The position numbers were made by a program, and so were the translations under genes. From contig NZ_REGA01000006.1 of the NCBI RefSeq assembly GCF_003841505.1, positions 62,001 to 126,000 of the forward strand: 64,000 bases of DNA, written 5' to 3'. Below are positions 11,957 through 61,668 of the stretch, piece by piece (the first letter of the stretch is position 1; each line of letters begins with the position of its first letter). The notes beneath the pieces are model-generated. The model saw nothing but the letters and a program-made list of their open reading frames with translations, was not told the DNA's origin and made no database searches. The DNA comes from Natrarchaeobius chitinivorans. GTDB taxonomy: Archaea > Halobacteriota > Halobacteria > Halobacteriales > Natrialbaceae.

Positions 11957-12035
11957 TACGGATTCCTGTACCGATGTACCGCCGCACCCACCGCCGGGTC
12001 GTGGGTGCGCCGAAGATGACGTACAGCAGTCCGTA
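11957..12035. repeat. TACGG...CCGTA palindromic element, copy 1 (at leuS stop)
   Basis: 79 bp, starts TACGGATTCCTGTA and ends GTACAGCAGTCCGTA. The inner stem is CGCACCCAC / GTGGGTGCG. The right flank TCA (12036-12038) is the complement of the leuS stop codon TGA; the left flank is TCG, one mismatch from a TCA direct repeat. Confidence 0.85.
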
Positions 12036-14696
12036 TCAGTCTTCGATTTCGATCGCCGGCCGTCCCGGTTCGGCGTTTTTCAACACGCTCTCGTCGACCG
12101 CTTCGGCGCGGACGACCGACACCGGCGCGTCGAACTCGCGCTCGATCAGCCACGCGGCGGACTCGAGTGCCGCGAACTCCTCGTCGGGTCCCAGCGTCAT
12201 CGAGAGCGCTTCGCGTTCGGCCTGCAGGTCCTGTCCATAGCTGGCGGCGGCGTCGCCCTGCTCGCGAATGTGGGAGTTTTGCATCAGTTCGCCGATCAGG
12301 TTGTCGGCGTCGCTCTCGATCGCGAGCTCGAGGGCGTCGTACTTCCACTCGGGGGCGACGACGACGTCGATCGCTTTCGGATCTTCGATGCCCGCGACCT
12401 CGACGATGTCGCGGACGTCTTCTCGAGTGTTCTCGACGAGTCGGCGGCGTTTGGTGACGTAATCGCGGTCGACCTCCGCAGTGGGCCACGGCGCGTCGAC
12501 GACGAAACCGTCGTTGCCCAGCGCCTCGTACAGCTCTTCTGCGAGGTGCGGCGCGACCGGGGCGAGCAGGCGAACGACGGCCGAGAGGCCGCGCTCGTAG
12601 GTCTCGGCGTGGGGTTCGGTATAGTCGGCGTAGCTCCGCAACGTTCCCACCAGATCCTGCGTCTCGCGGAGCGCGCGGTTGAACGTCAGGTCGTCGTACT
12701 CGCTGCCGGCGATGGCGATCGTCGCGTCGATCTCGCTTTCGACGTAGCTCGCGACGGCGTCGTCCGCGCCGTCGGGTTCGTTCGCGGTGTAGGATTCGAC
12801 CATCTCCTTGAGCCGCGAGAGGAAGGCGTTCGTCGATCGGACTCCTTCCTCGCTCCAGTCGAAATCACGCTCGGGCTGGGCGGCCTGCATCATGAACAGC
12901 CGCGCGGTGTCCGCGCCGTACTCCTCGACGATCCGCTGGGGGGAGACGACGTTGCCCTTCGACTTCGACATCTTCTCGCCCTCGAGTTGAACCATGCCCT
13001 GGGCGAGCAGGTTCGTAAACGGCTCGCGGTGTTCGAGCCCCTCGTTGTCGGCGAGCACCTTCGTGAAAAAGCGCGAATAGAGCAGGTGCATCACGGCGTG
13101 TTCGATGCCGCCGACGTACTGGTCGACGGGCATCCAGTCGTTCGCCCGTTCTGCGTCGAAGGGGGCGTCCTCGAGGTCGGGCGAGACGTACCGCAGGAAG
13201 TACCACGAAGAGTCGACGAACGTATCCATCGTGTCGGTCTCGCGGGTGGCCGTCCCGCCACACTCCGGACACCTGGTCTCTTTCCACTCTTCGGCGGCAT
13301 CCAGCGGATTGCCGGTGGTGTTGATGAACTCCGGCAGTTCGACCGGCAACTCCTCGTCGGGGACCACGACCGAACCACAGTCGTCGTGACAGTGGACGAC
13401 GGGGATCGGCGTCCCCCAGTAGCGCTGGCGGGAGATTCCCCAGTCACGAAGCTGATACTGTGCCGCATGGGCGGCGCTCTCGACGTCCTCTGTCAGTCGT
13501 TCGCGGGCGCTCTCGCTCTCGAGGCCGGAGTACTCATCGGAGTTTACCAGCACGCCGTCGTCGGTGAACGCTTGCTCGCTGACGTCCGGCGCGTCGGGGA
13601 CCGTCTCGCCGTCCCAGTCGTCGGGTTCGGGTGCGATCACGGGGACGATATCCTCGTCCATCTTCGTCGCGAACGCGTGGTCGCGCTCGTCGTGGCCGGG
13701 GACGGCCATCAGCGCGCCCGTTCCGACGTCCGAGAGGACGAAGTCGGCGACGTACACCGGAATCTCCTCGCCCGTTACGGGGTTCGTGGCGGTCAGATCC
13801 GTCTCGACACCGTTTGGCTCGTCGCCGTCGGGATCGGCTTCGTGCTCGATGAAGTGACGAACGTCGTCGTCGGCGGCGGCGAGTTCCTCGCTGATCGGGT
13901 GGTCCGGCGCGAGCGCGAAGAACGTCGCGCCGAAGATGGTGTCGACGCGAGTGGTAAACGCCGTGACGGCCCCGTGACCGTCGATCTCGAAGTCGAGTTC
14001 GGTGCCGTACTGGCGGCCGATCCAGTTGCGCTGCATCTGGCGCACCGAGTTCGGCCACCCCTCGAGGTCGTCGATCGCCTCCAGCAACTCGTCTGCGTAC
14101 TCGGTGATCTTCAGGAACCACTGCTCGAGTTCGCGCTGTTCGACCGGCGTCTCACAGCGCCAGCAGAGTTCGGCCTCTCCCTCGACTTGTTCGTCCGCGA
14201 GGACGGTCTCACACTCGGGACACCAGTTGACGTCGGCGTCTCGGCGTTCGACGAGCCCCTCGTCGTGAAATCGGGAGAAGAGCCACTGGTTCCACTGGTA
14301 GTACTCCGGCGTACAGGTCGCGATTTCGCGATCCCAGTCGTAGCCAAAGCCCATCGCGTGCATCTGCTCGCGCATCGTCTCGATGCAGTCGAACGTCCAG
14401 TCTCGCGGGTTCGTATCCCGATCTTTGGCCGCGTTTTCGGCGGGCAGGCCGAACGCGTCCCACCCCATCGGATGGAGGACCTCGTCGCCGCACATCCGCC
14501 GGTACCGGGCGTACGCGTCCGTTATCGTGTAGTTTCGGACGTGGCCCATGTGGAGTTTCCCCGACGGATACGGGTACATTCCCAGCACGTACGTCGGCTC
14601 GTCGACGTCGTCGGACGTCCGGTAGGCGTCCGCATCGTCCCACGCCTCTTGCCAGCGCCGTTCGACCGGCTCGTGGTCGTATCCCGCGTCGCTCAT
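12036..14696 (-). CDS. leuS: leucyl-tRNA synthetase (bacterial type)
   Basis: 886-residue class I synthetase that charges tRNA-Leu. The HIGH-type motif is HMGH at residues 49-52; KMSKS lies near residue 575 in GEKMSKSKGN. Between them are two zinc-ribbon-like CxxC pairs (CPECE and CWRCE) and the CP1 editing domain with TTRVDTIFGATF and VPGHDERD. The editing-domain position and the length match the bacterial-type LeuRS that haloarchaea are known to use instead of the longer archaeal form. The stop codon is the flanking triplet of a palindromic element. Monocistronic. Confidence 0.96.
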   Translation of the reverse strand: MSDAGYDHEPVERRWQEAWDDADAYRTSDDVDEPTYVLGMYPYPSGKLHMGHVRNYTITDAYARYRRMCGDEVLHPMGWDAFGLPAENAAKDRDTNPRDWTFDCIETMREQMHAMGFGYDWDREIATCTPEYYQWNQWLFSRFHDEGLVERRDADVNWCPECETVLADEQVEGEAELCWRCETPVEQRELEQWFLKITEYADELLEAIDDLEGWPNSVRQMQRNWIGRQYGTELDFEIDGHGAVTAFTTRVDTIFGATFFALAPDHPISEELAAADDDVRHFIEHEADPDGDEPNGVETDLTATNPVTGEEIPVYVADFVLSDVGTGALMAVPGHDERDHAFATKMDEDIVPVIAPEPDDWDGETVPDAPDVSEQAFTDDGVLVNSDEYSGLESESARERLTEDVESAAHAAQYQLRDWGISRQRYWGTPIPVVHCHDDCGSVVVPDEELPVELPEFINTTGNPLDAAEEWKETRCPECGGTATRETDTMDTFVDSSWYFLRYVSPDLEDAPFDAERANDWMPVDQYVGGIEHAVMHLLYSRFFTKVLADNEGLEHREPFTNLLAQGMVQLEGEKMSKSKGNVVSPQRIVEEYGADTARLFMMQAAQPERDFDWSEEGVRSTNAFLSRLKEMVESYTANEPDGADDAVASYVESEIDATIAIAGSEYDDLTFNRALRETQDLVGTLRSYADYTEPHAETYERGLSAVVRLLAPVAPHLAEELYEALGNDGFVVDAPWPTAEVDRDYVTKRRRLVENTREDVRDIVEVAGIEDPKAIDVVVAPEWKYDALELAIESDADNLIGELMQNSHIREQGDAAASYGQDLQAEREALSMTLGPDEEFAALESAAWLIEREFDAPVSVVRAEAVDESVLKNAEPGRPAIEIED

Positions 14697-14837
14697 TTGT
14701 GTAGACGTGGACGCGACGCCGCCCTATAGCTTTCCATCCACCCGCCGACCCGTTCCAACTGCTCGAGAACCGTCATCCGCTCGCGGTGATCGCACTCGTC
14801 GCGCGTCCTATCGTGCGAACTGTTACTGCCAATCTGA

Positions 14838-14914
14838 TACAGTCGAAATGTGTCCGTACCGGCCGATCGCACGAGGGTGGGCGATCGGCCGATAATCAGT
14901 CGTCCCAAACCGTA
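14838..14914. repeat. TACGG...CCGTA palindromic element, diverged copy 2 (at hsp20 stop)
   Basis: 77 bp; left end TACAG, right end CCGTA. Inner stem CGGCCGATCGC / GCGATCGGCCG. The right flank TTA (14915-14917) is the complement of the hsp20 stop TAA; the left flank is TGA, so the direct repeat is not exact in this copy. Confidence 0.7.
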
Positions 14915-15334
14915 TTACTCGATGTCGATCTCTCGAGACTCCTCGCCGCCGCCGACTTTCGGCAGTCGAACCGTCAACACGCCGTTTTCGTACCCCGCAG
15001 AGACCGAGTTCTCTTCGACCGGGTCTGGCAGTCGGATTCGTCGACTCGCCGTCTTTCGCGTCCGTTCGCGCCGGATGTACTGCCCTTCGGTGTACTCCAT
15101 CTCGTGTTCGCGATTCGCCTCGAGACGAAGCGTTCCCTCCGAGAGGGTCAGCGAAATGTCGTCGGTCTCGTAGCCCGGGAGATCCGCGGTGACGACGTAC
15201 TCCTCGCCGGTGTCGGCGACGTCGACCGGAACCGAGCCCGGTACCTGGAGACCGCCGCTGGTCATTCCGCCTTCGACCTGCCGGCTGATGCGGTCGAGCA
15301 TCTCCTCGATATCGTTGAACGGGTTTCCTCGCAT
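14915..15334 (-). CDS. Hsp20/alpha-crystallin small heat-shock protein
   Basis: 139-residue ATP-independent holdase chaperone. After an N-terminal helix (NPFNDIEEMLDRISRQ) and a Gly/Met linker, the alpha-crystallin beta-sandwich spans about residues 45-135, with YVVTADLPGYETDDISL and the conserved NGVLTVRLPK. The ATG at 15334 gives the normal Hsp20 start; an in-frame ATG at 15376 would add a segment without similarity. Its stop codon abuts a palindromic element. Probably soluble and stress-induced by family knowledge; no heat-shock operator was identified. Confidence 0.92.
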   Translation of the reverse strand: MRGNPFNDIEEMLDRISRQVEGGMTSGGLQVPGSVPVDVADTGEEYVVTADLPGYETDDISLTLSEGTLRLEANREHEMEYTEGQYIRRERTRKTASRRIRLPDPVEENSVSAGYENGVLTVRLPKVGGGEESREIDIE

Positions 15335-15448
15335 GGACGGAGCTACGACCTCGAGTGGGATAAATTCTGCCCGCACTCGAACGACAGAACGGACTGTCCC
15401 GTTCGTGGACGGGTTCGATCGATCGGGTGCGGGACGGATCCGCCGGAT

Positions 15449-15907
15449 CTACCGTTCAGGTAACGTAGCGAGTCCGTCCTCGAGCGCGTCGCGCAGGACC
15501 TCGCGGGCGTGTCCGTCCGGATCGACGCTCTCGTAGACCGACTGCACGTTGCCGTCGGTGAGGACGAACGTCGTCCGTTCGGCCGCACCGGAGCTGGCGT
15601 CGACGTCGAACGCCTCGGCGACCTCCCCGTCCGGATCGGCGAGCAGGTCGAACGCGAGGCCCTCGGCGTCACAGAACGCTCGATGGGAGTCGACGTCGTC
15701 GGTCGAGACGCCGTAGACCGACACCCCCGCTTCGCGGTAGGTTTCGAGTTCGCGATCGAACTGGCGCGCTTCGATCGTACAGCCGGGCGTCTCGTCTCTC
15801 GGGTAAAAGTACAGCACTGTTGGCTCCTCGAACTCGAGGGTCACGTCCTCGCCGTTCTGGTTCGGCGCAGTCACGGTCGGCGCGTCGCTGCCTTCGTCGA
15901 GTGTCAT
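15449..15907 (-). CDS. bcp: peroxiredoxin, BCP/PrxQ type
   Basis: 152-residue thiol peroxidase reducing hydrogen peroxide and organic hydroperoxides. The active-site segment FYPRDETPGCTIEARQF carries peroxidatic C43. The second cysteine five residues later found in many PrxQ proteins is absent (an arginine-region residue instead); another Cys sits near residue 79 (FCDAEG), so the resolving partner is uncertain. The ATG at 15907 starts the thioredoxin-like fold at the usual place. Adjacent to hsp20 on the same strand, both plausibly stress genes. Confidence 0.9.
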   Translation of the reverse strand: MTLDEGSDAPTVTAPNQNGEDVTLEFEEPTVLYFYPRDETPGCTIEARQFDRELETYREAGVSVYGVSTDDVDSHRAFCDAEGLAFDLLADPDGEVAEAFDVDASSGAAERTTFVLTDGNVQSVYESVDPDGHAREVLRDALEDGLATLPER

Positions 15908-16008
15908 ATCCCACCCTCGGCGGGACGCGAAAAACCGTTTGGGGTGGGCGGTGTGGGCCGGCCGATCGGTCACCGGGACGGTACTCGGTCGTCCGGATAC
16001 GATGTCGG

Positions 16009-16821
16009 CTACTCGACGACGTGTTCGGTATCGTAGGAACCGAGCCGGCGCACCCAGCCGTTTTCCGCGAGAGCTTCGATCTCTTCGAGCGCCTCCTTCG
16101 TGCGAGCCTCGTACAGCCCCGCCTCGATGTCGATGTGGAAGACGTAATCGCCCAGTCGCTGACCGCTCGGGCGTGATTCGAGGCGAACCAGATTGATGTC
16201 TCGATTCGCGAACGGCTCGAGCAGTTCCAACAGGAGACCGGGGTAGTCCGCGTCCGGGTAGACGACGAGCGAGGTCTTGCCGCCGCCTTTCGTCCGCTCC
16301 TCGGCGGGTGCAAGCGCCAGAAAACGCGTCGCGTTCGAATCCCGATCCTGAATATCCTCGCCGAGCACCTCGAGGCTGGTGCCGTTTTCGGCGTTTGCGG
16401 GGTGGCCGATGCCCGCGACGGAGGGGTCGTTGCGGGCGAACTCGACGCCCTGTGCGGTGCTGGCGACCGCCTCGAGGGTAGCGTCGGGGTACTCACGCTC
16501 GAGGAAGGAGCGACACTGTGCGATCGCCTGGGAGTGACTGGCGATCGTGTCGAACTCCTCGCCCTGTGCGAGCAGCGCGTGTCGGATGGGAGTGACGATC
16601 TCGCGAACGACGGCGACGTCGTACTCCGCGAGCGCGTCGAGACTCTCGGTAACGCTGCCTTCGATGCTGTTCTCGATCGGAACGACGCCGCGGTCGTACT
16701 CGCCGGCCGCGACGGCGTCGACGATGGCCGTCACCGACTGGCGAAAGTCGATCTCGTCGTCGATCGCACGGGTAGCTCGGTGCGAATACGTCCCTTCGGG
16801 GCCCAGCGTAACTGCAGCCAT
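16009..16821 (-). CDS. pheA: prephenate dehydratase
   Basis: 270-residue enzyme converting prephenate to phenylpyruvate in phenylalanine biosynthesis. It starts with the typical LGPEGTYSHRA and has IENSIEGSV, SHSQAIAQC and the catalytic NATRF motif (SNATRFLALA). The C-terminal ACT domain (about residues 185-265) has ESRPSGQRLGDYVFHID, the region that binds Phe for feedback inhibition. No chorismate mutase domain is fused, as usual in archaea. Pathway partners are not adjacent. Confidence 0.95.
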   Translation of the reverse strand: MAAVTLGPEGTYSHRATRAIDDEIDFRQSVTAIVDAVAAGEYDRGVVPIENSIEGSVTESLDALAEYDVAVVREIVTPIRHALLAQGEEFDTIASHSQAIAQCRSFLEREYPDATLEAVASTAQGVEFARNDPSVAGIGHPANAENGTSLEVLGEDIQDRDSNATRFLALAPAEERTKGGGKTSLVVYPDADYPGLLLELLEPFANRDINLVRLESRPSGQRLGDYVFHIDIEAGLYEARTKEALEEIEALAENGWVRRLGSYDTEHVVE

Positions 16822-17036
16822 CGCTCGTCAGTTACGCGGAGAGCATCAAAAGACCGTCGCCTCTGTGGCGAGCGCCGGCGGTCAGGGTCGTCGTCGGATC
16901 GATAGCAAACTTTCTCGAGGATGAACAGATCGGTCTCTCTCGAGGGTGCACAGATCGGTAGGACGTTCGACGCGGTAGAACAACGTGGGATTCGGACCGT
17001 CAGTTACGACTCACTGTGTGGAAACCACTGGATCAC

Positions 17037-17345
17037 TCACTCGTCCAGGTGTTCGATCCCCTTTTTCGACACGTTCGCCTCGGTGATTTCGCCCGGCATC
17101 CAGTCCGGCTTGTCGTCTGGTGCGGTCTCTTCCCACGCCCAGCCGTCGTAGATGTGGACTTTGTCCGTCCCCTTCTCGCGAAGCCGAAGTTCGACGCGTT
17201 CGGCCGCGTCCTCACTCGATCCCGGCTCGAGTCGCCGGGCGGCTTTGAGCGCAGCCTGTCGCGGGGTGTTCCCCGAGAAGACGCTCGACTCGTCGCCGCT
17301 CGATTCTCGCAGTGCGAAGTTCCGCTTACCGTCTTCACGTACCAT
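17037..17345 (-). CDS. MC1 family chromosomal protein
   Basis: 102-residue small DNA-bending protein of the archaeal MC1 family. Diagnostic parts are NFALRESSGDESSVFSGNTP, RQAALKAARRL, LRLREKGTDKVHIYDGW and PDWMPGEITEANVSKKGIE. MC1 proteins bind double-stranded DNA non-specifically and bend it strongly. This copy is acidic overall, as in halophiles. The start at 17345 is supported by a strong Shine-Dalgarno sequence GGAGG seven bases upstream. Confidence 0.92.
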   Translation of the reverse strand: MVREDGKRNFALRESSGDESSVFSGNTPRQAALKAARRLEPGSSEDAAERVELRLREKGTDKVHIYDGWAWEETAPDDKPDWMPGEITEANVSKKGIEHLDE

Positions 17346-17352
17346 GGTTTTA

Positions 17353-17357
17353 CCTCC
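17353..17357 (-). promoter_or_regulatory. Shine-Dalgarno of the MC1 gene
   Basis: GGAGG followed by TAAAACC and the ATG at 17345. One of few clear ribosome binding sites in a window where many genes look leaderless. It implies a transcript with a 5' leader, matching the TATA-like stretches farther upstream (about 17380-17425). Confidence 0.6.
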
Positions 17358-17541
17358 GTGTCAATTCAGCGCACGGTCTGACATAAAGATATCCCCGAAA
17401 ACCGACCGACAGCGTCGGTATCTTTAAGTAAGTCGGGTTCGCTACTTTTCCGCACCAACCCTCGTTCGTGTTTCTTCGTCGGTCTCTGTTCGTTTACGTA
17501 CTGTTCATCTGGTACGGTCGTCGGTCCTGTCGTAGAAAACA

Positions 17542-17552
17542 CTTAAGTATAT
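17542..17552 (+). promoter_or_regulatory. TATA-like box upstream of the AbrB-like gene
   Basis: CTTAAGTATAT lies 32-42 bases before the ATG at 17584, placing the transcription start about ten bases before the gene. Confidence 0.45.
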
Positions 17553-17583
17553 CCTACGGCGAAGTTCGTCATAGAATCCCGCG

Positions 17584-17781
17584 ATGGTACGGAAAAAGAA
17601 GCTGAGTCCAAGCGGTGCGAAAGACGAAGATGGAAACTACCACAACGTCCACCTCAACCTCCACGAGGACGAACTCGCAGTCGCGGGGATGGATATCGGT
17701 GACGAAGTCTTCGTCCGGGTTCGAGACGGCAAGATCATCATCCAGAAAGCCGACGAGGAAGACGTCGAACACGAATTCTAG
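17584..17781 (+). CDS. small AbrB-like (swapped-hairpin) protein
   Basis: 65-residue protein with a basic start (MVRKKKLSPSGAKDEDG) and a beta-rich C-terminal half. The pattern DELAVAGMDIGDEVFVRVRDGKI resembles the swapped-hairpin AbrB/SpoVT fold (loop GMDIGDEV, strands around VFVRV and KIIIQKA). Such proteins bind DNA as dimers or act as antitoxins; no toxin gene is adjacent, so a small regulator is more likely. It appears to be conserved among haloarchaea (from memory), function not established. Confidence 0.7.
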   Translation: MVRKKKLSPSGAKDEDGNYHNVHLNLHEDELAVAGMDIGDEVFVRVRDGKIIIQKADEEDVEHEF

Positions 17782-24945: not shown

Positions 24946-26469
24946 TCAGCCGTCCGAAACGCGCGTCGTCTCGAGCGATCCCGACCCCATCCAGACGAAG
25001 CCGGACTCCTCGGCGGTCGCTTTCGCCTCCGGCAGCGCCGTCGGATCGAACTCCTCTCGAAATTCGATACGGGTCCGTTCCGGCTCGACCGCGGGAAGCT
25101 CCGGCAGGAACTCGTCGTCATCGAGAACCCCCTCGACGGAGACGGCTCCGCCCGCACCCAGCGCCATTCCGAGCGCCCGGTACCGATCGTCCTCGGTCTC
25201 CCACTCGACGTCCGACCCGAAGGAATCGTTCGAGACGCGAGCGGTCTTCGTCGTTCCCGAAAGCGTCCCGAACCCCGCCGACTCCTCTTCGGAATCGGAC
25301 GGTCCGTCTTCACACGCCTCGTCGGTTTTCTCCCCTGTGGCTTCCCTCGAGCGTGACCCACCGTCGTCCATCCGCCTCGAGCGTGATCCACCGTCGTCCG
25401 TCTGCCTCGAGTCGCCGGCGGCGATCCCCACCGACGAGCCAGCCGCGGCGTCCATCGCGCTCGAGCGCCCGCCCGTCGGGGACGCCGACTGCGACTCGTC
25501 CGCGCCGCTCACCCGTGACACCGTCGGTGAGCCACTGAGTTCGAACCCGTCAGTGTCGCCATCTCCGCTGGCGTCCGACGACGCGGTCCACGCCGGTTCC
25601 GACGTGGGTTCTCGGTGTGACCGGTCTCGTTCCCCGCCACGATTCTCGGGCTCGCTCTCCGCCGGCGACCGGCCCTCCGATCCGGGATCCGATTCGGCCT
25701 CCTCGATGAACGACGCGACGTCGTCGAGCGTCGCCTGCGAACTCCCGGTCGACGCCCGCCGGTCGCTCGTGGGGACGCTCGTTCCGTCCCGTTCGCGGTC
25801 GCTCGCCCACGCCGGCCACGGGCCGTTGCGCTCGTCGCCGCTCGCGGCCGGTTCTCCCCCTTCGTCGGGCACGTACGCCTCGAGCCCGTCTTCGGGTACC
25901 AGTGGTCGACCGACCGCGTCGATTCGTGGCCCGTACCGATCGCGCAGATCCGCGAGTTCGTCGCCGTCGACCAGCACCCCACGCCACCGGTCGACGCCCG
26001 AGGAGAGCAACACGAAGCGGGCCCCGGTTCCCGCCAGTAGCGTCTCCTCGATCTTCGCGAGGATCGCCGGCAAATTGTCGGTTCCGAGCGGACTCTCCGG
26101 ATACTCGAGGGTTGCCTCGCGCCGCCGGCCGTTGTGGTCGACGACGCTCACCGACAGTCGGTCGCGCGCAACCGACCTCGCGCAGTCGAACGACCAGCCG
26201 ACGGCTTCGAAGACACCCGAGAGTTCCCGCTCGAGGCTCTCCTGTGTGTATCGCGCCGAACAGGAGATACCGCGGTTGCTCCGGGCGATCATCCGCCGAA
26301 GGATCGACGTTCGGTCCCGTCCGTCCTCGAGCGCGCCGGCGAGGACCTCCTCGAGCGGGCCGTCGATTTCGCTCTCCCGCTTGATCTCCGTCGACGTGAC
26401 GCCGAACGCGCCGAGGACGTCGACGGAGATCAGGAGTCCCTCGTCGCTGTTGGGGGGCTCGGGGACCAT
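24946..26469 (-). CDS. haloarchaeal protein with long disordered linker
   Basis: 507 residues, no family recognised. An N-terminal domain (about 1-200: LLISVDVLGAFGVTSTEIKRE, RYTQESLERELSGVFEAVGW, LPAILAKIEETLLAG) and a small C-terminal domain (about 430-507: DRYRALGMALGAGGAVSVEG) flank some 230 residues rich in Ser, Asp, Glu, Gly and Arg, including a short repeat of DDGGSRSR. The linker is encoded by locally repeated DNA (25340-25420). Its stop codon is the flanking triplet of palindromic element 4a. Cytoplasmic; role unknown. ATG at 26469 chosen as the first in a coding-like frame. Confidence 0.6.
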   Translation of the reverse strand: MVPEPPNSDEGLLISVDVLGAFGVTSTEIKRESEIDGPLEEVLAGALEDGRDRTSILRRMIARSNRGISCSARYTQESLERELSGVFEAVGWSFDCARSVARDRLSVSVVDHNGRRREATLEYPESPLGTDNLPAILAKIEETLLAGTGARFVLLSSGVDRWRGVLVDGDELADLRDRYGPRIDAVGRPLVPEDGLEAYVPDEGGEPAASGDERNGPWPAWASDRERDGTSVPTSDRRASTGSSQATLDDVASFIEEAESDPGSEGRSPAESEPENRGGERDRSHREPTSEPAWTASSDASGDGDTDGFELSGSPTVSRVSGADESQSASPTGGRSSAMDAAAGSSVGIAAGDSRQTDDGGSRSRRMDDGGSRSREATGEKTDEACEDGPSDSEEESAGFGTLSGTTKTARVSNDSFGSDVEWETEDDRYRALGMALGAGGAVSVEGVLDDDEFLPELPAVEPERTRIEFREEFDPTALPEAKATAEESGFVWMGSGSLETTRVSDG

Positions 26470-26604
26470 CCTGAGAGGACGGTTTTACGAACAGCCGTAT
26501 ATATCTACGTCAGACGCTGTAAGATATCGTCACTAGGGGATGAAAATTACGGGCCGACGTCGCCGACTTCGCCGCCGAAGCGACGGCTTGCGTTTCCTCC
26601 GTTC

Positions 26605-28185
26605 CTATCGCCGTCTCGGCGACTCGAGTTCGATATCCGCCGCCTCGAGCAGGTCCGCGACCTCCTCGCGTTTCTCCTGGTGGTCGGCGAGAAACTCCTT
26701 CATGAGCTGGGCGGCCTGTTCCTTGCAGTCGCCACAGAGGCGCTCGCCGCCGACGCACTCGTCGTAGACGAGCTTTGCGAACTCGTCGTCGTCACCCGCG
26801 AGCAGGTAGGCGTACAGTTCGTAGACCGGACACTCGTCGGCCCGACCCCCCTTCTCGCGCTGTTCTTCGGCCGTCTCTCGCCCGCCGGTCGTCGCCGACT
26901 TTACCTTGTCGTAGCCCGTCTCGGGATCGTCGAGCAAGGAGATGTGGCTGGCTGGGATCGACGAGGACATCTTTCCACCCGTGAGGCCGGTCATAAAGCG
27001 GTGGTAGATCGACGACGGCGGGCGGAAGCCGTAGCCGCCGTTGTCGACTTCGACCTCGCGGGCGAGTTCCTCGGCCTCTGCGAGGTCGATCTCGAAGGCG
27101 TCGACGTGGCTCTCGTAGACTCGCTTCTCGCCGTCGATCGCGTCGATCAGCGCCTCGAACGCCTCGTCGGTCGCCCGTCGGTCGAAAAACCGCGTCCGGG
27201 GCCGGATCGGTTCCATCCCCGCCTCGTTCAGCTTCCGCAGGGTCGACTCGAGCGTGCCCGCGTCGACGTCGAGTTCCGACAGCGGCGTCTCCTCGAGCGT
27301 CTCGGCGACGTGGACACAGCGAAGCTGGTCGTCGTCGAACGCCTCCGGATCGAGCTGATCGTACCGTTCGGCGACCAGAGCGCGTTCGTTGGGCTCGAGT
27401 TCGAAGCTGGCGTAGGCGTCGCTCACCTTGAAAAAGCGCATCCGCTCGGCCAGGTCCCGCGCCAGTCGAACGTGGGGATCCTGGTCGGGACCGACGGGGA
27501 TGACCGTCGGTTTCGGTTCCTCGAGTTGCGGGTAGAGGATATCGGCCATCTGCGTGACGACCGACTGCATGTGCGAGACGTCGGTCTCGCCGTCGAAGCC
27601 GTAGATCGCCTGAAACTCCGAGAAGTTGGCCTCGGCACCGAGTTCGAACGCGAGATCCTGGACCTCGCGGTTGGTCGACTGGCGGTAGAGCGTGCCTTCC
27701 TCGGGATCGAAGCCGAGTGCGAGCAACGAGAGGAGGTAACTCCGCGCGTGTTCGTCGATCTCGGCCCAGCTCATCCCGCGGGCGGCGTTGGCCTCGAGGT
27801 CGGCGATTAGCGCGTACGCGTCCGCGCCCCGTTGCTGGTGCCAGACGATCTCGTCGAAGACAAGTTTGTGTCCGATGTGCGGATCGCCGGTCGGCATGAA
27901 TCCCGAGAGGACGGCCGCGGGCTCGTCGTTTCGCATCGCGTCGGCGACCGGCTCGTACCCCCGGTGGCCGAAGATCACGCCGCGGCGCATCAGGTAGTGT
28001 GGGTGGGGTACGTCCTCGAGTATCTCGTCGAACTCTTCGATGCCGAACTCCTCGAACAGCTTGCGGTAGTCGGAGACGCTCGAGGAACCCCACGGGTCGA
28101 GCGCGACATCGTCTGCTCCTGCTGCCCCACCGTCGGGTAACGTGGTCCCTGACTCGGACTCCTCGAGTTCGTCGTCTCCGGTCAT
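26605..28185 (-). CDS. trpS: tryptophanyl-tRNA synthetase
   Basis: 526 residues from the ATG at 28185 (an in-frame GTG lies two codons upstream). Class I synthetase that charges tRNA-Trp: HIGH at residues 101-104 in TGDPHIGHK, PVGPDQDPHVRLARD in the Rossmann core, KMSSS near residue 404 in GGKMSSSIP. The C-terminal part carries CGDCKEQA, as in archaeal/eukaryotic-type TrpRS. An acidic N-terminal extension of about 40 residues precedes the core. Monocistronic between the linker protein and the CetZ-like gene. Confidence 0.95.
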   Translation of the reverse strand: MTGDDELEESESGTTLPDGGAAGADDVALDPWGSSSVSDYRKLFEEFGIEEFDEILEDVPHPHYLMRRGVIFGHRGYEPVADAMRNDEPAAVLSGFMPTGDPHIGHKLVFDEIVWHQQRGADAYALIADLEANAARGMSWAEIDEHARSYLLSLLALGFDPEEGTLYRQSTNREVQDLAFELGAEANFSEFQAIYGFDGETDVSHMQSVVTQMADILYPQLEEPKPTVIPVGPDQDPHVRLARDLAERMRFFKVSDAYASFELEPNERALVAERYDQLDPEAFDDDQLRCVHVAETLEETPLSELDVDAGTLESTLRKLNEAGMEPIRPRTRFFDRRATDEAFEALIDAIDGEKRVYESHVDAFEIDLAEAEELAREVEVDNGGYGFRPPSSIYHRFMTGLTGGKMSSSIPASHISLLDDPETGYDKVKSATTGGRETAEEQREKGGRADECPVYELYAYLLAGDDDEFAKLVYDECVGGERLCGDCKEQAAQLMKEFLADHQEKREEVADLLEAADIELESPRRR

Positions 28186-28243
28186 TACCACCGCCTTGGC
28201 GCTCCGGCGCGCAAAAACCTTCGCTTCTGGGTCGCCGCCGGCT

Positions 28244-28300
28244 TAACGAACCACCGTCGACGTAACGAATCGCCATCGACCTGAGGAATCACCGTTACGC
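28244..28300. repeat. three diverged 19-bp tandem units
   Basis: Units begin TAACGAACCACCGTCGACG, TAACGAATCGCCATCGACC and TGAGGAATCACCGTTACGC. They lie between trpS and the end of the CetZ-like gene. The unit length equals that of the array at 35705-35856 but the sequence differs. Confidence 0.6.
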
Positions 28301-28328
28301 ATCGATCGGACGAACGGTTCCGGTCAGT

Positions 28329-28333
28329 CCGTA
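28329..28333. repeat. right-end remnant of a TACGG palindromic element
   Basis: CCGTA directly beside TCA (28334-28336), the complement of the stop codon of the CetZ-like gene, preceded by GGTCAGT like other right arms. No matching left arm was found, so this is at best a decayed copy. Confidence 0.35.
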
Positions 28334-29674
28334 TCAGGCTTCGTTTCGTCGCTCCTCGAGGCGTTCGACCGGTTCGATGCCGGCGAGCACGACGACGGCG
28401 TAGACGAGGTCCGTGCCGGGCCGTGGTGCGTCGCCGCCGAGGATCTCCACCGACCCCGTCGCCGACTCGATCGTCTTTCGGCCGTCCGTGATCGCCCGTC
28501 GGTTGAGCCACTCCGGCGGCCCGCCGACGACGAGCATTCCGCGGTCGGCGTGCTCGCGGTCGCACTCGAGGGTGAGTTTGCCGCGCAAGGCCTTGCCGAC
28601 CGTGGTCTCGATCGCGCTCACCGCCGCGGCGGTGTCGACCGACGGCTCCGTCGCGAACAGCCCGAGGCCGAACCGCGATCCGCTTTCGGCCTCGACCCGC
28701 TGTTCGCCGTAGCCGAGCGTCACCAGATCCGTTCCGTCGCCGAGAATCCGGCCGACGTCGTTCGCGTCGATGACGGTCTCGGCGTCGGGACCAGTCCCCC
28801 CGTCGCTGGCGTCCGCAGTTGCACCGAAGAACGCCGCCACCCGCGCCGCGAGTTCCCGGTTGAGCCGATCGCGTCCCTCGAGGAGGCCTTCGGCGGATTT
28901 CAGCCAGCGCTCGTTGTCGAAACAGACGATCGCGTTCGCGAGCCCCTCGAGGCGCTCGAGCGTCCGGGTCGCGTTCTCCTCGGCGAGCGGACGGGTCGTG
29001 GGTTCCGGCTCGAGTTCTTCGGTGGGATCGTCGTCCGGTGGCCTCGTGCTCTCACCGGGTCCCACACCGACCGTGCCGGCGGCTTCCACGCGCTCATCAC
29101 CGGTATCGTTGGTTTCCACGCGCTCATCATCGATACCGTGGGTTTCCGCGCGTCCGTCACCGGCAGGCGGAACGCGTTCTCCGTCGACACCCCCTTCCCC
29201 GGAACCGCTGGCGTTCGGTGCTCGCGGATCGCCGTCGTCCGACTCCGGGGCCTCGAGTTCGCGTTCGGCCGGCAACGTGGCGAGGACGTACACCGGCGCG
29301 TCGTACATCGTCTGGAGGGTCGCGACGAGGTGTGGCACCGTTCCGCCACCTGTCGCCCCGCCGAGGCCGACGGCGATCAGAAACGCGTCGGCGATCGACG
29401 GCTGCCCTCGGTCTAACTGTCGCTCGAGTTCGTCGACCGATTCCTCGCCGACCGAATCCCCTCGCTGGAGGTTTCCGTTGAGCCCGTTCTCGACGGTTCC
29501 ACCGTACCGATGTCGGTGGTCGTCGGGAATCGCGGAGAGCGCTCGCAGGCTTCTCGCGTCCGTATCGAACGCGAACGCGTCGCCGACGAACGAGTGCTCG
29601 GCCGGATCCGCATCCAGAATCGAATCGGCGATCCGACACCCCGCGCCGCCGACGCCGATCACCTCGAGTTGCAT
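28334..29674 (-). CDS. CetZ/FtsZ-like tubulin-family GTPase with an inserted linker
   Basis: 446 residues. The N-terminal GTP-binding motif is GVGGAGCRIAD (residues 7-17). The tubulin signature loop reads AVGLGGATGGGTVPHLVATL near residue 105, and VYVLATLPAE follows. Around residues 140-225 there is a low-complexity acidic insertion with repeated units such as DDERVETNDTGDERVE; the C-terminal domain resumes at NATRTLERLEGLANAIVCFDNERW. In haloarchaea CetZ proteins shape cells and FtsZ divides them; which subgroup this is cannot be settled here. The stop codon abuts a palindrome remnant. Confidence 0.75.
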   Translation of the reverse strand: MQLEVIGVGGAGCRIADSILDADPAEHSFVGDAFAFDTDARSLRALSAIPDDHRHRYGGTVENGLNGNLQRGDSVGEESVDELERQLDRGQPSIADAFLIAVGLGGATGGGTVPHLVATLQTMYDAPVYVLATLPAERELEAPESDDGDPRAPNASGSGEGGVDGERVPPAGDGRAETHGIDDERVETNDTGDERVEAAGTVGVGPGESTRPPDDDPTEELEPEPTTRPLAEENATRTLERLEGLANAIVCFDNERWLKSAEGLLEGRDRLNRELAARVAAFFGATADASDGGTGPDAETVIDANDVGRILGDGTDLVTLGYGEQRVEAESGSRFGLGLFATEPSVDTAAAVSAIETTVGKALRGKLTLECDREHADRGMLVVGGPPEWLNRRAITDGRKTIESATGSVEILGGDAPRPGTDLVYAVVVLAGIEPVERLEERRNEA

Positions 29675-29750
29675 ACCTCGACGTATCGTTCGGCGGGGAT
29701 TTCACGTTTCCGGGCACGACCTCGTCTCCCGAATCGCCGCTTAACTCTCA

Positions 29751-29827
29751 TACGGATTCCTGTACCTGTGTACCGGAGACCGCGGGACGGTGCCCGGTAC
29801 TCCGGACATGACGGACAGTAACCCGTA
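29751..29827. repeat. TACGG...CCGTA palindromic element, copy 5 (at endA stop)
   Basis: 77 bp, starts TACGGATTCCTGTACCTG and ends GGACAGTAACCCGTA. Stem around CCGGAG...CTCCGG. Exact TCA flanks at 29748-29750 and 29828-29830; the latter is the complement of the endA stop TGA. Confidence 0.9.
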
Positions 29828-30880
29828 TCACGGCGTCAACCGCTCGAGCGACCACCACTCGATCCCGCCGCCCTCGCCGACGAGCGCGAACACCATCGTC
29901 TTGCGGACGCCGTGGGCGAGTCGGACGTCGAGCGCGAGATCTCGCGGCTCGAAGACGTACGTCGACGGGTGGACGCGGACCAGGAGTTCGGAGTGGCCCA
30001 GTTCGTCGACCGACTCGACGTTCGCGTACGTCCGAAAGTCCGCGCCGAACTTGTAGCCGGTCTTGGGGACGACACCCCGATCGCGAAGTTCCGCGTAGAC
30101 GCGCAATCGTCGCTCGAATCGCTCACCCTCGACCTCCCGACCGCGCTCTCGAACCGTCTCGGGCGCGAGGTCGATCGCGCCCTCCTCGGCGAGGTAGGTC
30201 GCCTCGAGCAACGAACACTGGAGCGTCGGCCGATCGTACTCCCGCCCCTCGAGCGGTTGGCCGTAAAACGCCTCCTCGTACAGCGCCAGCGGAGGGTCCC
30301 AGACGACGACGCGATCGGCCAGCAGGTCGGCCCCACAGCCGTCGGGGAGCGCGGACTCGGAAGTGCCCTGAGGATCCACCGGGTTCACGTCGAAGTATGT
30401 GATCTCGCTCTCCTCGTCGACGACCGCCAGCACGCCGTCGGCGAGGTCGTCCGCCGCGACGTCCGTCCGCTCGCCGATGATCCGCAGGGCGTAGGCGATC
30501 TCGTCGTCACCGGGGCCTTTCCCGCGGGGGAAGACCGCGAAATCGCTCGCGGGCGGGTCGGCGACCCACGGCTCTGCGGCCGGCGACAGGTAGAACCCGC
30601 GGGATCGCAGGTCGGCGTAGACGAGAAACCTGACGCCGAAGCTCTCGCCCGGTTCGCGGGCGATGAACGTTCGAAAATCGAGTCGCTCGTCACTCTCTTC
30701 GTCGACGACCGCCTCGAGGTCGCCGCGAAAGAGCAAGTGTGCCGCCTCCACCGGGGCCAGCGCGATCTCGTTTCCGGACAGCGGATAGCCGTACCCCCGC
30801 GAGTCGTGATACCGCTGGCGGGCGTCGCCGCCCACGCGGACGACGTTCGACGCGACGTCGTAGCTCCCCTCGAGTGACAT
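29828..30880 (-). CDS. endA: tRNA-splicing endonuclease EndA
   Basis: 350-residue two-repeat form of the archaeal splicing endonuclease, which cuts bulge-helix-bulge motifs in precursor tRNAs and rRNAs. Two homologous halves are visible (FLVYADLRSRGFYLS and LRVYAELRDRGVVPKTGYKF). The C-terminal half keeps the catalytic triad: Tyr in GYKFGADFRTY, His in GHSELLVRVHP and Lys in HGVRKTMVFA (about K327). The first half lacks the triad and is structural, as expected for a homodimer of fused repeats. Monocistronic; start ATG at 30880. Confidence 0.94.
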   Translation of the reverse strand: MSLEGSYDVASNVVRVGGDARQRYHDSRGYGYPLSGNEIALAPVEAAHLLFRGDLEAVVDEESDERLDFRTFIAREPGESFGVRFLVYADLRSRGFYLSPAAEPWVADPPASDFAVFPRGKGPGDDEIAYALRIIGERTDVAADDLADGVLAVVDEESEITYFDVNPVDPQGTSESALPDGCGADLLADRVVVWDPPLALYEEAFYGQPLEGREYDRPTLQCSLLEATYLAEEGAIDLAPETVRERGREVEGERFERRLRVYAELRDRGVVPKTGYKFGADFRTYANVESVDELGHSELLVRVHPSTYVFEPRDLALDVRLAHGVRKTMVFALVGEGGGIEWWSLERLTP

Positions 30881-30970
30881 AACCGTGGGTTAGCCGGGGG
30901 CCACTAAGTGGCTGTGGATCGGTCGGCTGGGGTGACTCACCAGTAGGGACACTCGTCCGGACTGTTGTTA

Positions 30971-31061
30971 GACGGATTGTTGCAAGGCACTCTCGGTGGG
31001 ACCGCGAAACGCCTGCGTTTGCACCCCACGTCGGGACGGCAGTCGGCCATCACAATCCGAA
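30971..31061. repeat. degenerate TACGG-type palindrome at the stop of the NucS-N gene
   Basis: The left arm GACGGATTGTTGCAAGGC resembles TACGGATTGCTGTAACTG of copy 7. The right arm ends CACAATCCGAA before TCA (31062-31064), the complement of the stop codon. About 90 bp, arms only partly complementary. Low-certainty member of the family. Confidence 0.4.
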
Positions 31062-31838
31062 TCAGTCGTCGCTCGCCGGTTCGGCCTCGAGCGTCCGCTC
31101 TCCCGGCCGATCGCAGGTGGCGTCGAGACAGCGGATTCCGGTCTGCGTCTCGAACGTCGGCAGCCCGCAGGCGCACTCGCCGCTGACGACTCCCGCCGGG
31201 AGGGCGAACCCGGTGTCACACTCGGGGTACCGTTCGCAGCCGGCGATGAGGCCGCCGCGTCGAAGGATCCGGAGGTCGCCGTCGCAATCCGCCTCGGGAC
31301 ATCCCCACTCGCGGTCGAACGCCTCCGTGACCGCGTCGTCGAGGGACTCGCAGTTCCGGTCGAGACAGAGGTTAAAGGCGAGGCCGCGCTCGATACGCAT
31401 CCGGGGGAGACCACAGTCGCAGTTGCTCTGATCGGTGCGGACCGTCGCGTCGGCGGGAACGCCGTAGCGGGTCCCGCAGTCGACGCAGTTGACCCCCGAC
31501 GAGCGCACGAGTGCGCCGTCGCAGTCCGGACAGGTTCCGACCGGCCTCCCGGCCGCGGAGGACGGATAGTGGGCGAACCCGTCCTGGTCGTGGGCGGCGA
31601 TGCGAAGCGTCCGGTCGTCTTTCTTCGCGACGAGCGAGAAGCCGTCGGCGCGCTCGCTCGAGACGCTGTCGGCGCGGGTGAGCCAGGCGACCGGCTGGTA
31701 GCCGTCGACGTCGTGGACGAGGACGGTGTTGTCGGGCTTGACCATCGTCGTCACTCTCCCGCGGTACTCCTCGCGGTCGCCGGCCTCCGAGATCACGGTG
31801 CAATCGCCCGCGAGCACGCGAATCGCGTCGTCGATCAT
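31062..31838 (-). CDS. NucS N-domain-like protein with four zinc ribbons
   Basis: About 258 residues from the ATG at 31838. Residues 1-75 resemble the DNA-binding N-terminal domain of NucS/EndoMS (DUF91): VLAGDCTVISEAG, RGRVTTMVKPDNTVLVHDVDG. No RecB-like nuclease domain follows. Instead there are four topoisomerase-type C4 zinc modules (CPDC...CVDC, CDC...CLDRNC, CPEADC...CERYPEC, CAC...CLDATC). It therefore looks like a nucleic-acid-binding protein, perhaps in repair, without visible catalytic residues. A TATA-like GTATAAG at 31863-31869 supports the 31838 start over the longer frame. Confidence 0.75.
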   Translation of the reverse strand: MIDDAIRVLAGDCTVISEAGDREEYRGRVTTMVKPDNTVLVHDVDGYQPVAWLTRADSVSSERADGFSLVAKKDDRTLRIAAHDQDGFAHYPSSAAGRPVGTCPDCDGALVRSSGVNCVDCGTRYGVPADATVRTDQSNCDCGLPRMRIERGLAFNLCLDRNCESLDDAVTEAFDREWGCPEADCDGDLRILRRGGLIAGCERYPECDTGFALPAGVVSGECACGLPTFETQTGIRCLDATCDRPGERTLEAEPASDD

Positions 31839-34860: not shown

Positions 34861-35026
34861 GTCAATGATGATCCGAACTACCGGATTGTCCGCTCTTTCA
34901 GAACGAACGGTGAAAATCGTGTATCCGTCCGTTGGTTCCGATACGGATCGTTAGAGATCATCACCGACGTGGCCGCAAACGGGCTGTGTCCCTCCCGGCA
35001 ACCAGAGAGCACAGGCCACCGACTGA

Positions 35027-35104
35027 TACGGTTTACTGTACGTCAGTACCGGAGCGACCGGCCAGTCCCGCGGTCGATCCGGTACACAGTGACAGCAATC
35101 CGTA
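35027..35104. repeat. TACGG...CCGTA palindromic element, copy 6
   Basis: 78 bp, starts TACGGTTTACTGTACGTC and ends GACAGCAATCCGTA, inner stem GGAGCGACCG / CGGTCGATCC. Exact direct repeats TGA at 35024-35026 and 35105-35107, so the target is TGA in this orientation. Confidence 0.9.
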
Positions 35105-35157
35105 TGAACGACGGCGATACCGGTCCGATTTAGTAGGTGCATTCCAGAACGTGTGCC

Positions 35158-58258: not shown

Positions 58259-58271
58259 TTAACGTTACCGT

Positions 58272-58320: not shown

Positions 58321-58689
58321 CCACGGACTGTCGCCGACTTCAGCGCGGATCATCGGCCCGACCGCGACCCGACAGTCGGCTCGAGGGACCGCGATACACA
58401 GAAGCACGTAGCCGTCCGCCCGTTCGGCGGCCGTGAGCGCCCGGGGCTGGCGACGGTAGTCGAACGCTTCGGCTGCGTCGACCGGTTCGTTCGCCTCGGG
58501 CTCGTCGGGAGCGTCCTCCTCGACTGCGACCACTCGACCCACGCACGTCGTACAGGTCCCCTTCCGGCAGTCGGCGGGCAACCGGATCCCCTCGCGCAGG
58601 GCCACGTCGAGGACCGTCTCCCGTGGGTCGACCGCGACGGAATCGGTTCGGCCGTCGGGCCACTCGAGGGTCACGTCGTAGCTCGTCAT
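58315..58689 (-). CDS. 2Fe-2S ferredoxin
   Basis: 124 residues from the ATG at 58689. Plant-type ferredoxin fold with the cluster ligands CRKGTCTTCVGR (C41, C46, C49) and a fourth Cys in VLLCIAVPRADC (C98 or C106). Longer than minimal ferredoxins by an acidic insertion (EEDAPDEPEANEPVDAAEA). Electron carrier; partner enzyme unknown. Short gap to ligA upstream of it on the same strand. Confidence 0.9.
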   Translation of the reverse strand: MTSYDVTLEWPDGRTDSVAVDPRETVLDVALREGIRLPADCRKGTCTTCVGRVVAVEEDAPDEPEANEPVDAAEAFDYRRQPRALTAAERADGYVLLCIAVPRADCRVAVGPMIRAEVGDSPWG

Positions 58690-58871
58690 CGCGACTCCCC
58701 CGCCGTCGACCGTCGGTCGTCCAGTCGGTCCATACGGATGGTACGACGGGCGGCGGCAAAAGTCCGTTCCGCTCGAGTGCGTACTCCGCTTGGACCGATC
58801 CCGACGCCTCGCCGGGGGCGAACCGGGCGATACCCAGTCTTTACCCGCACCCACCACGTAGCGACGAGTAG

Positions 58872-59741: not shown

Positions 59742-61449
59742 CCGCACCTTCCGTCGGAAGCTCGATGCGAGTCCGCGTTCCGCCGAGGTCGGGGTCGTCG
59801 TCGATCGTCAGCGAACCGCCGGATTTCCGGACGATGAGGTCGACCATCCAGAGGCCGATTCCCGACCCGTGTTTGAGGTCGGTCTCCTCGCCGGCGTGAA
59901 GCGTTTCGATCTCGTACGGGTCTGTTCCGGGGCCGTTGTCCGCGACGACGAGTTCGACCGAACCGTTCGTCGATCGCGCCCGGATGACGACCCGGACCGA
60001 CTCCGCCCCGTTTTCGTGGTGGACGATCGCGTTCTGGACGAGTTCGTCGAGCGCTCTGCCGATACTCGGGTGGGCGACGGCCGTAAGCTCCGACGGGACG
60101 TCGGTGTCGATGTCGACGGATCGGTGGCCGGTAGCGTACGGCTGTGCGTGCCGGCGGACGAGCGACTCGATCCGGACGGACTCGAGGGTTCTGTCGACGT
60201 CGATTATCGCCTCGAGTTCTTTCGCTTTCTCGCTGTGTCGCAGGATACGATCGGTGTTCGCCACGATTTCGCCGACGTGGTCGTCGACGTCGCCGTCGTC
60301 CGCCTGGTGCTGGATCATCTCCGCGTGCCCGCGGAGGATCGTCAACTCGTTTCTGATGTTGTGACGAAACACCCGAGAGAGCACCTGCTTGAGCAAGTCG
60401 AGTTCCTGTTCTCGCTCTTTGAGTTCGGTGATGTCGCGCAACACCAGCAGCGACCCGGTGTCGGCCCCACCCTGCTCGATCGGCCGGACGTCCATCGAGA
60501 AGTGTCTCGTGCGCTCGTTCGCCCCGATTGCGATCTCCGTTCCGCTCGTGTGACCCCGTTCGTACTGCTCGAGAACCCTCGGATACTCGCTGCAGACCGA
60601 CTCGAGGTCGTCGCCGATCGGGTCGCCGTCGACGTCGAACAGCGTTCTGGCCGCCGGATTGACGTCGACGATGGTTCCCTCGGTGTCGACGGAGAGCAAC
60701 GCGTCGGGCATCGTCTCGACGGCTTTCCGCCGGCTGACCGGCGCGAGCGCGAACAGCTGGTAGCGAAACAGCGCGAGCCCCCAGAGGACGGTCGTGACGA
60801 GAAACAGCAGGGGCGTCAGGTCGACGTACGGCGGAATCGCCTCGACGTTTCTGAACAGGTGCGTGTTGAGCGCGCCCGGAAAGCCGATGGCCCACCCGCC
60901 GAGGAGCAACAATAGCTGGTTGCGGTGATCCCCGACGGCCGAGCGGAGGTCCTGTGCGAGGAGTCCGGCGGGGACCATCACCATCGCCACCGCGAACCCG
61001 ATGTGGACGATGTACCACGGCCCGAGGACGAGTTCGCTGATACCGGCCGGATTCGCCGGCGTCTCCGCTGTGAGCACCAGGTGGTGCCACGGGTTCGTCG
61101 CGGTCAGTACGACGGTCACAGCGGGGATGATCAACAGTGCGAGGATCGACGATCGCTTCAGCGATACCCGGTCCCGTCTGGTATATTCCCAGACGAGCAA
61201 CGGCCAGCCAAAGATGACGAGCAACTGGAACAGGTGTCGAATCGTCGTGTTCACGAACACCGGCATGACCTGTGTCGGCCACGTGATCAACGCCAGCTGG
61301 ATCGACCAGCCGGCCATTCCGAGTTCACACAGCGCGAACCCTCGAGCCCCCGGCTCCGCTCGCTTTCGAAACGCGTAAACCGCGACTCCGGCGATCGGCA
61401 CGGCACAGATCAGCATGAAAAACGTCATCGACTGTGCTGCGCTCGTCAT
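59707..61449 (-). CDS. 7TM sensor histidine kinase
   Basis: 580 residues. The first 235 residues form about seven hydrophobic helices (for example FFMLICAVPIAGVAVYAF, LLVIFGWPLLVWEY, PLLFLVTTVLWGLALFRYQ), a haloarchaeal 7TM sensory module. A PAS domain (DALLSVDTEGTIVDVNPAAR), a HisKA with phospho-acceptor His in VFRHNIRNELTILRGH and a HATPase (LVQNAIVHHENG, DNGPGTDPYE, HGSGIGLWMV) follow. Signal unknown. Convergent overlap with rio1. Confidence 0.9.
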   Translation of the reverse strand: MTSAAQSMTFFMLICAVPIAGVAVYAFRKRAEPGARGFALCELGMAGWSIQLALITWPTQVMPVFVNTTIRHLFQLLVIFGWPLLVWEYTRRDRVSLKRSSILALLIIPAVTVVLTATNPWHHLVLTAETPANPAGISELVLGPWYIVHIGFAVAMVMVPAGLLAQDLRSAVGDHRNQLLLLLGGWAIGFPGALNTHLFRNVEAIPPYVDLTPLLFLVTTVLWGLALFRYQLFALAPVSRRKAVETMPDALLSVDTEGTIVDVNPAARTLFDVDGDPIGDDLESVCSEYPRVLEQYERGHTSGTEIAIGANERTRHFSMDVRPIEQGGADTGSLLVLRDITELKEREQELDLLKQVLSRVFRHNIRNELTILRGHAEMIQHQADDGDVDDHVGEIVANTDRILRHSEKAKELEAIIDVDRTLESVRIESLVRRHAQPYATGHRSVDIDTDVPSELTAVAHPSIGRALDELVQNAIVHHENGAESVRVVIRARSTNGSVELVVADNGPGTDPYEIETLHAGEETDLKHGSGIGLWMVDLIVRKSGGSLTIDDDPDLGGTRTRIELPTEGAVSRGTGPAPDS

Positions 61450-61525
61450 TGACCGATCACTCAGACGAGTGGGTTCCTCATAATTATATGTGGGGGTCGT
61501 TTAGATCTTCACTCTCGGCACCGAT

Positions 61526-61562
61526 ATAGTAACAGCTGAAACGATTTACACTCCTGATCGCT
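61526..61562. repeat. half copy of the TATAGTA palindromic element
   Basis: TATAGTAACAGCTGAAACGA then TTTACACTCCTGATCGC matches one arm of the element at 4928-5011 (whose right arm, on the other strand, reads TATAGTAACAACTGGAACTA) with a few changes. The other arm is missing. Confidence 0.65.
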
Positions 61563-61588
61563 AGACGTAGCGACAATGGGTGATTCAT

Positions 61589-61668
61589 ACGGATTGCTGT
61601 AACTGTTCATCGGAGCGACCGCGGGACGGCGCCCGGTCGCTCCGGTAACGACGTACAGCAAACCGTAT
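61589..61668. repeat. TACGG...CCGTA palindromic element, copy 7
   Basis: 80 bp, starts TACGGATTGCTGTAACTG and ends GTACAGCAAACCGTA, inner stem GGAGCGACCG / CGGTCGCTCC. Exact TCA flanks at 61586-61588 and 61669-61671. Intergenic, not at a stop codon. Confidence 0.9.

Follow-up and report, generated by a model that had tools for sequence, protein, structure and literature searches.

What are the short palindromes that recur in one stretch of the genome of the haloarchaeon Natrarchaeobius chitinivorans, and are stop codons the sites into which they insert? The window, as we call the 64,000 nucleotides that were analysed (G000:C6:62001-126000; assembly size 4.57 Mb), holds ten copies of a palindrome of 77-80 bp, TACGG...CCGTA, eight of them full and two decayed; the full copies and their flanks were established by a base-by-base coordinate check. 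A sequence-only reading of the window had proposed a mobile family that uses the TGA stop codon as its target site and duplicates it on insertion. The exact 3-bp direct repeat (TCA or TGA) on which that proposal was built was read directly around 6 of the 8 full copies, those at 11957 and 14838 being without it. Our analysis indicates that the element is probably a non-coding family of about 80 bp, similar to miniature inverted-repeat transposable elements (MITEs), which duplicates a TSA target (S being C or G), is moved in trans by a DDE transposase and is enriched at gene ends through tolerance and sequence context. Stop codons are good landing sites, not demonstrated as a target in themselves.

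A mobile family in the genome and its relatives

When the genome was searched with TCATACGGWTTNCTGT, allowing at most one mismatch, 462 places matched, compared with 0 when the pattern was reversed as a control for chance. At least 144 intact palindromes are present (142 forward and 144 reverse places, mostly one element seen on both strands), and 113 of them have TCA or TGA on both sides, that is, TCA on one strand or the other. Copies that are 100% identical stand at separate places (L009, L017, L021). The intact form with TCA on both sides was found at 475 places in 17 of 61 related genomes, with up to 121 intact copies per genome, whereas the inverted-flank form, TCA...TGA, gave 10 places in these 61 genomes, corresponding to 6 elements in 4 genomes. 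Across the order, an exact element end occurs in 16 of 146 genomes, 13 of them in the same family. At 28 of the 30 loci from this order-wide search (two of them from the genome itself), a matching right end, which would close the hairpin, lies 77-143 bases away; L185 and L188 have no matching right end at the stringency used. Among the matches listed, two species of Natrialbaceae, Natronorubrum halalkaliphilum and Salinadaptatus halalkaliphilus, each have the element end many times; the scan of named genomes also gave chance matches in unrelated bacteria. A scan of viral contigs returned 9 matches (GC 35-49%), none with a hairpin partner. The sequence-only reading is supported in that this is a mobile palindromic family.

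The way in which loci were collected limits how their flanks can be read. Loci L001-L030, the loci picked by name and L182-L211 came from searches with TCA-bearing patterns, which biases one of their two flanks; L175-L181 were found with a TGA-bearing pattern, and the stretches L031-L050 were picked around pattern matches.

Target duplication and empty sites

Two close empty sites carry a single TCA. The joined flanks of the copy at 17916 align with L248, from the same genus, gap-free over 53 bp at the junction (92% identity, or 73% over 241 bp), and L248 has one TCA at this point. The joined flanks of the copy at 24847, which lies inside another element, align with L177, an uninterrupted sibling of that outer element, at 96.9% over 97 bp, again with one TCA. 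Of all junction-spanning alignments, 27/51 passed the display filter, and many of these pair one element with another. Of the 196 distinct copies, 166 are flanked left and right by one and the same triplet, TCA or TGA, and another 2 by TAA/TAA; many of these loci came from a TCA pattern, and one flank is not independent there. Given the single TCA in two close empty sites and the 475 direct versus 6 inverted flanks, the TCA/TGA is a true 3-bp target duplication, as the sequence-only reading had supposed.

The endA locus offers a further comparison. Loci from 29 relatives were aligned at the endA stop, which reads TCA in 21, TTA in 3 and CTA in 1, with the alignment falling short of the stop in 4; at none of the 29 is an element present at the stop. 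Near endA, weak one-ended matches at L233 and L241 were considered and judged to be chance.

At L015:1504-1664, two elements stand in tandem with one TCA in common between them, as expected if the flank of one element serves as the target of the next.

Target context and stop codons

For gene context, genes were predicted with a simple codon-usage caller, and any genes that it does not recognise would make the stop-codon fractions come out too low. Copies in the own genome were collected with an nhmmer profile, which did not pick up the window copies at 14838 and 24785, both of another core subtype; the relatives' set comprised 60 loci picked by organism name and 48 further loci or stretches. 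The 859 kb analysed in the own genome hold 85 copies, of which 29 adjoin a predicted stop codon (28 TGA and one TAA), always with the element after the stop; from the TSA sites in the same stretches taken together, 7.2% would be expected (P = 6e-13). None of the 85 lies inside a predicted gene, and 13 are between divergent genes. For the relatives, 51 of 105 copies adjoin a predicted stop, and one doubtful copy lies within a gene. Copies are thus intergenic, with the highest density at stop codons and just downstream.

The target itself has a near-palindromic context, GWC-TSA-G.C. At sites away from stops, each side reads G, A or T, C towards the TSA; at stop sites, the coding side reads GAC, and the non-coding side, read outward, G-A-C. 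The latter resembles the element's own end, so some of these sites may be older decayed ends. As a separate observation, the sequence after the second triplet on the downstream side of stop-codon copies is often GACGG, the element end with its first base changed; these may possibly be old decayed copies at reused sites.

To allow for this context, we gave every TSA site a weight derived from the surroundings of the non-stop copies in the other set (own from relatives and the reverse). This test left out 39/85 own and 9/100 relatives' copies because of an unclean triplet pair, an edge position or a location within a gene. In the own genome, occupancy per weight was 0.0172 at stops and 0.0095, 0.0156 and 0.0035 at 0-25, 25-50 and 50-100 bp downstream, respectively; in the relatives it was 0.0174 at stops and 0.0193, 0.0128 and 0.0071 over the same intervals. 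Beyond 100 bp it was 0.002-0.006. The ratio of stops to the 0-100 bp downstream fell from 3.6 unweighted to 1.95 weighted in the own genome (P = 0.07) and from 4.7 to 1.39 in the relatives (P = 0.21). After weighting the excess is not significant, and we conclude that most of it is due to the context and to tolerance of insertions close to gene ends.

These numbers bear on the alternative that survives best, namely that the machinery reads a stop codon as a signal in its own right, for example through a link to translation or to transcription termination or through a longer gene-end signal, in which case GACTGAGAC would be hit unequally at and away from gene ends. The simple counts, with their strong excess at stops, speak for it, as do weighted ratios that still exceed 1. 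The weighted excess is not significant, however, and about half of the clean copies lie away from stops (27/46 own, 45/91 relatives). Sites without a stop also show the GWC-TSA-G.C context, as does the non-coding flank of stop sites, and copies also insert within other elements. We therefore consider recognition of stop codons unlikely. The target is better described as a TSA trinucleotide on either strand in the GWC-TSA-G.C context than as the TGA stop codon that the sequence-only reading had named. What stood of its proposed stop-codon preference is the excess by simple counts, most of which is gone after context weighting. As for its suggestion of safe landing sites, we infer that stop codons are safe, well-matched TSA sites.

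Hairpin structure and mode of movement

The ends of the element, TACGG(A/T)TT(A/G)CTGTA, form terminal inverted repeats, and its length is mostly 76-81 bp. At about 80 bp it is too short to encode a transposase; the element has the terminal inverted repeats of a MITE and no coding capacity. Pairing was examined in 87 distinct sequences from 91 of 118 copies of 80 bases, all oriented, with copies lacking the A/T arm asymmetry left out. Watson-Crick pairing along the element was 73%, compared with 22-30% after the partners had been shifted by 1 or 2 positions and 68% after shuffling within columns. At 13 pairs, 5% or more of the copies carry compensatory changes; after shifting, 2-3 pairs do. 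A mismatch is present in nearly every copy at positions 6/75, 16/65 and 19/62, although for 6/75 this follows from the choice of rows. As single-stranded DNA, seven window copies folded with z-scores of -1.7 to -7.2.

We then asked how the element is oriented relative to its triplet. When the 46 clean copies are turned so that their flanks read TGA, 20 have an A-type left arm, 18 have a T-type one and 8 belong to other types. Among pairs with at least 90% identity, query-biased loci excluded, 272 are concordant in orientation and 296 discordant (81 versus 100 in the own genome only). Pairs at 97% identity gave 32 concordant versus 18 discordant with the query-biased loci and 17 versus 18 without them, and 100% identical pairs gave 2 versus 7. 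Both orientations to the triplet occur, which fits a symmetric double-strand process.

Hairpin folding and conserved mismatches are what one might look for in single-stranded movement of the IS200/IS605 or REP/RAYT type, by a tyrosine (HUH) transposase with TGA as a one-strand cleavage site, and the failure to find a carrier element is compatible with it. Such movement would tie orientation to the TGA strand, whereas near-identical copies show both orientations in similar numbers. A palindrome bounded by inverted repeats, with its target duplicated, is the pattern of DDE transposition, and this is the pattern of the whole element here. Single-stranded movement accordingly seems to us very improbable, and from the random orientation we infer a DDE-type transposase acting in trans.

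In the DDE-based explanation, a transposase supplied in trans would cut double-stranded target DNA, as a symmetric complex, at GWC-TSA-G.C with a 3-bp stagger. Insertion at TSA, which is TCA on one strand and TGA on the other, duplicates the triplet, and both element orientations are seen. Since a duplicated TGA keeps the gene's own stop, an insertion at a stop codon would be harmless, and natural selection, together with the fit of Asp-TGA (GAC TGA) to the target motif, would concentrate copies at stops.

A non-mobile 3' untranslated or terminator structure under selection, to which gene-end location, compensatory core-stem changes and one terminator-like consensus match overlapping an element end (24942-24961) might point, is scarcely credible given relatives without the element at the same gene end (endA, and L248 for the 17916 copy), copies inside copies, the copies between divergent genes, the lack of any Rfam match in the window at gathering thresholds, and terminator-like matches in 11500-31200 that number 10 against 12.2 in shuffles.

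Search for a mobilising enzyme

The sequence-only reading had suggested looking for a transposase with ends matching TACGG...CCGTA. In the own genome, PF01609 was matched at 24 places (17 over the cut-off), PF13586 at 2 weak ones (none over) and PF12762 at 4 (2 over). Several transposase loci are cut by contig ends, where an outer end could escape notice, and some have other clear ends, such as an 8-bp duplication at L266. At L345 and L280, an ordinary short copy with both of its own ends lies nearby, and the transposase is not enclosed on both sides. We also scanned 2.6 Mb (partly unrelated bacterial contigs) for TSA-flanked inverted repeats 250-3500 bp apart, which gave 8 pairs compared with 2 in shuffled sequence. 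On inspection, four pairs were judged to connect the ends of distinct short copies or remnants, and the other four to be chance. A search for long variants returned none, a result that covers one strict form of the pattern only.

Several observations weigh against the explanation we prefer. None of the PF01609, PF13586 or PF12762 places of the own genome was seen to be bounded by TACGG ends, although other families, including Y1, were not searched, and the 2.6 Mb scan did not yield an autonomous carrier transposon. More distant empty sites are mixed: L247:17592 (TGA) aligns with CGA in the empty site of L244 (75% local identity), L171:16843 (TCA) with TCG in paralogous stretches (66-72%) and L217:685 (TAA/TAA) with TGA in L214/L242, so the TSA rule is neither confirmed nor excluded by these alignments. 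In a set not selected by matches (n = 36, from the window and 20 stretches picked blind to matches), identical triplets on both sides were kept in only 15 copies, one triplet in 12, a mixed pair in 1 and neither in 8. A leftover stop-codon preference of up to twofold may persist after weighting. Finally, compensatory core-stem changes and conserved mismatches are not needed by a plain DDE passenger.

Copies in the window and variants elsewhere

Copies and remnants of the palindromic element in the window, with strand and flanking context
Feature	Position	Strand	Flanks and context
Element copy	11957-12035	-	TCG/TCA; leuS ends at TCA 12036-12038 (stop codon TGA)
Diverged copy, another core subtype	14838-14914	-	TGA/TTA; adjoins the TAA stop of the hsp20 gene
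Intact element	17916-17995	.	TCA 17913-17915 and 17996-17998; single-TCA empty site in same-genus L248
Outer element, split by the inner copy	24785-24945	-	TCA 24782-24784 and 24946-24948; the latter is the stop of the 24946-26469 gene
Inner element, at a TCA within the outer element	24847-24926	.	TCA/TCA; uninterrupted sibling L177 has one TCA
TGATACGG end remnant	28329-28336	-	Lies over the stop of the CetZ gene (28334-29674)
Intact element	29751-29827	-	TCA 29748-29750 and 29828-29830; the latter is the endA stop; relatives without element at the aligned stop
Decayed copy	30971-31061	-	Adjoins the stop (TCA 31062) of the 31062-31934 gene
Intact element	35027-35104	+	TGA 35024-35026 and 35105-35107; no predicted stop codon there
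Intact element	61588-61667	.	TCA 61585-61587 and 61668-61670

The coordinates originally given for these copies were confirmed, except that the last had been placed one base off (61589-61668). The TACGG and CCGTA bounds hold generally, with TACAG at the left end of the 14838 copy and CCGTC at the right end of the outer 24785 copy as departures. A flanking triplet had also been read as the stop codon of six genes, which is correct for leuS, the gene at 24946, endA, the CetZ gene at 28334 and the gene at 31062, and incorrect for hsp20, which ends in TAA (14915). The leuS assignment relies on Pfam leucyl-tRNA synthetase domains, and endA is a tRNA intron endonuclease gene whose stop is the TCA at 29828. 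The gene ending at 24946 encodes 507 amino acids and has no assigned identity; the 31062-31934 gene has weak NucS and zinc-ribbon matches.

Variants were seen elsewhere. A Halobacteriales metagenome-assembled genome has relatives of 108-109 bp (L056:7553-7660 and L094:425-533); their ends are TACTGG or TACGG, their repeats TGA or TCA, and the family therefore extends beyond the 80-bp form. In a longer variant (L036:19803, L039:19080, L158:19426 and L048:6165-6322), the arms extend as ...CTATAGTAGCCACTG... or similar, apparently a further subfamily or a nested copy. The 137-bp elements at L193:1378-1514 and L135:6115-6251 carry an additional internal segment within the core hairpin (one strand reads GGTGAGTCGAAC...), which suggests core exchange between subfamilies. 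A second small mobile family is represented at L173:13348-13527, where a short inverted-repeat element with ends TAGGGATTATCGTAG / CTACGATAATCCCTA and ACT repeat flanks has interrupted a TACGG element.

Comparison with known systems

By behaviour the element is a MITE. It shares with MITEs its short length, lack of coding sequence, terminal inverted repeats, high copy number, target duplication and, presumably, mobilisation in trans; it differs in that no related autonomous transposon was found here, in its near-strict TCA/TGA target, and in its whole-element hairpin with conserved mismatches and compensatory core changes. No description of this hairpin family was found in the open PubMed Central literature, with subscription journals and ISfinder outside the scope of the search.

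For the target step, the closest model, judged from the part of the source available, is the IS1031 subgroup of the IS5 family, which is reported to prefer 5'-TNA-3' and to leave a direct repeat of 3 bp, TGA in the example given there (PMC12016507). The 168 TCA/TGA or TAA pairs counted above are 3-bp TNA duplications of this kind. The ends differ, being GAACCTG... in the insertion sequence of that excerpt (PMC12016507) and TACGG... here, and the middle base of the triplet is nearly always C or G in our element. In the own genome, neither the PF01609 nor the PF13586 places yielded an IS1031-type element with TACGG ends.

The Haloquadratum walsbyi elements SMR-A and SMR-B are 80-110 bp long, with terminal inverted repeats unlike those of known transposons and a mobilisation called enigmatic in the portion of the report available (PMC3119063). 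Our element fits them in length and in its missing enzyme; its own ends were compared with three transposase families in one genome. According to the same portion, SMRs make no target duplication, and SMR-A targets near-terminal palindromes of IS605-type elements (PMC3119063). Because the hairpin element does duplicate its target, a 3-bp TSA, and also lies at gene ends, we do not class it with the SMRs as so described. REP elements, moved by RAYT transposases, are likewise abundant imperfect palindromes between genes in the available extract (PMC3733652); in our element, by contrast, no GTAG/CGTC tag was seen, the target is directly duplicated and orientation is random relative to the triplet.

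Significance

The family poses the question of what enzyme mobilises it when no carrier transposon is seen, and the same gap is noted for the Haloquadratum SMRs in the part of that report available (PMC3119063). One possibility, which we offer tentatively and would not bet on, is that a stand-alone enzyme moves the hairpins and that its target, GWC-TSA-G.C, is shaped so that gene ends, Asp-TGA stops above all, are docking sites. Spread to high copy number would then be nearly costless, and the compensatory core hairpin might serve the enzyme or the 3' end of host mRNA. As a marker of insertions, the family could be useful in comparing species. It clearly illustrates how a mobile element can spread with little damage: the duplicated triplet can be a stop codon, leaving the protein unchanged, and one third to one half of copies are found there.

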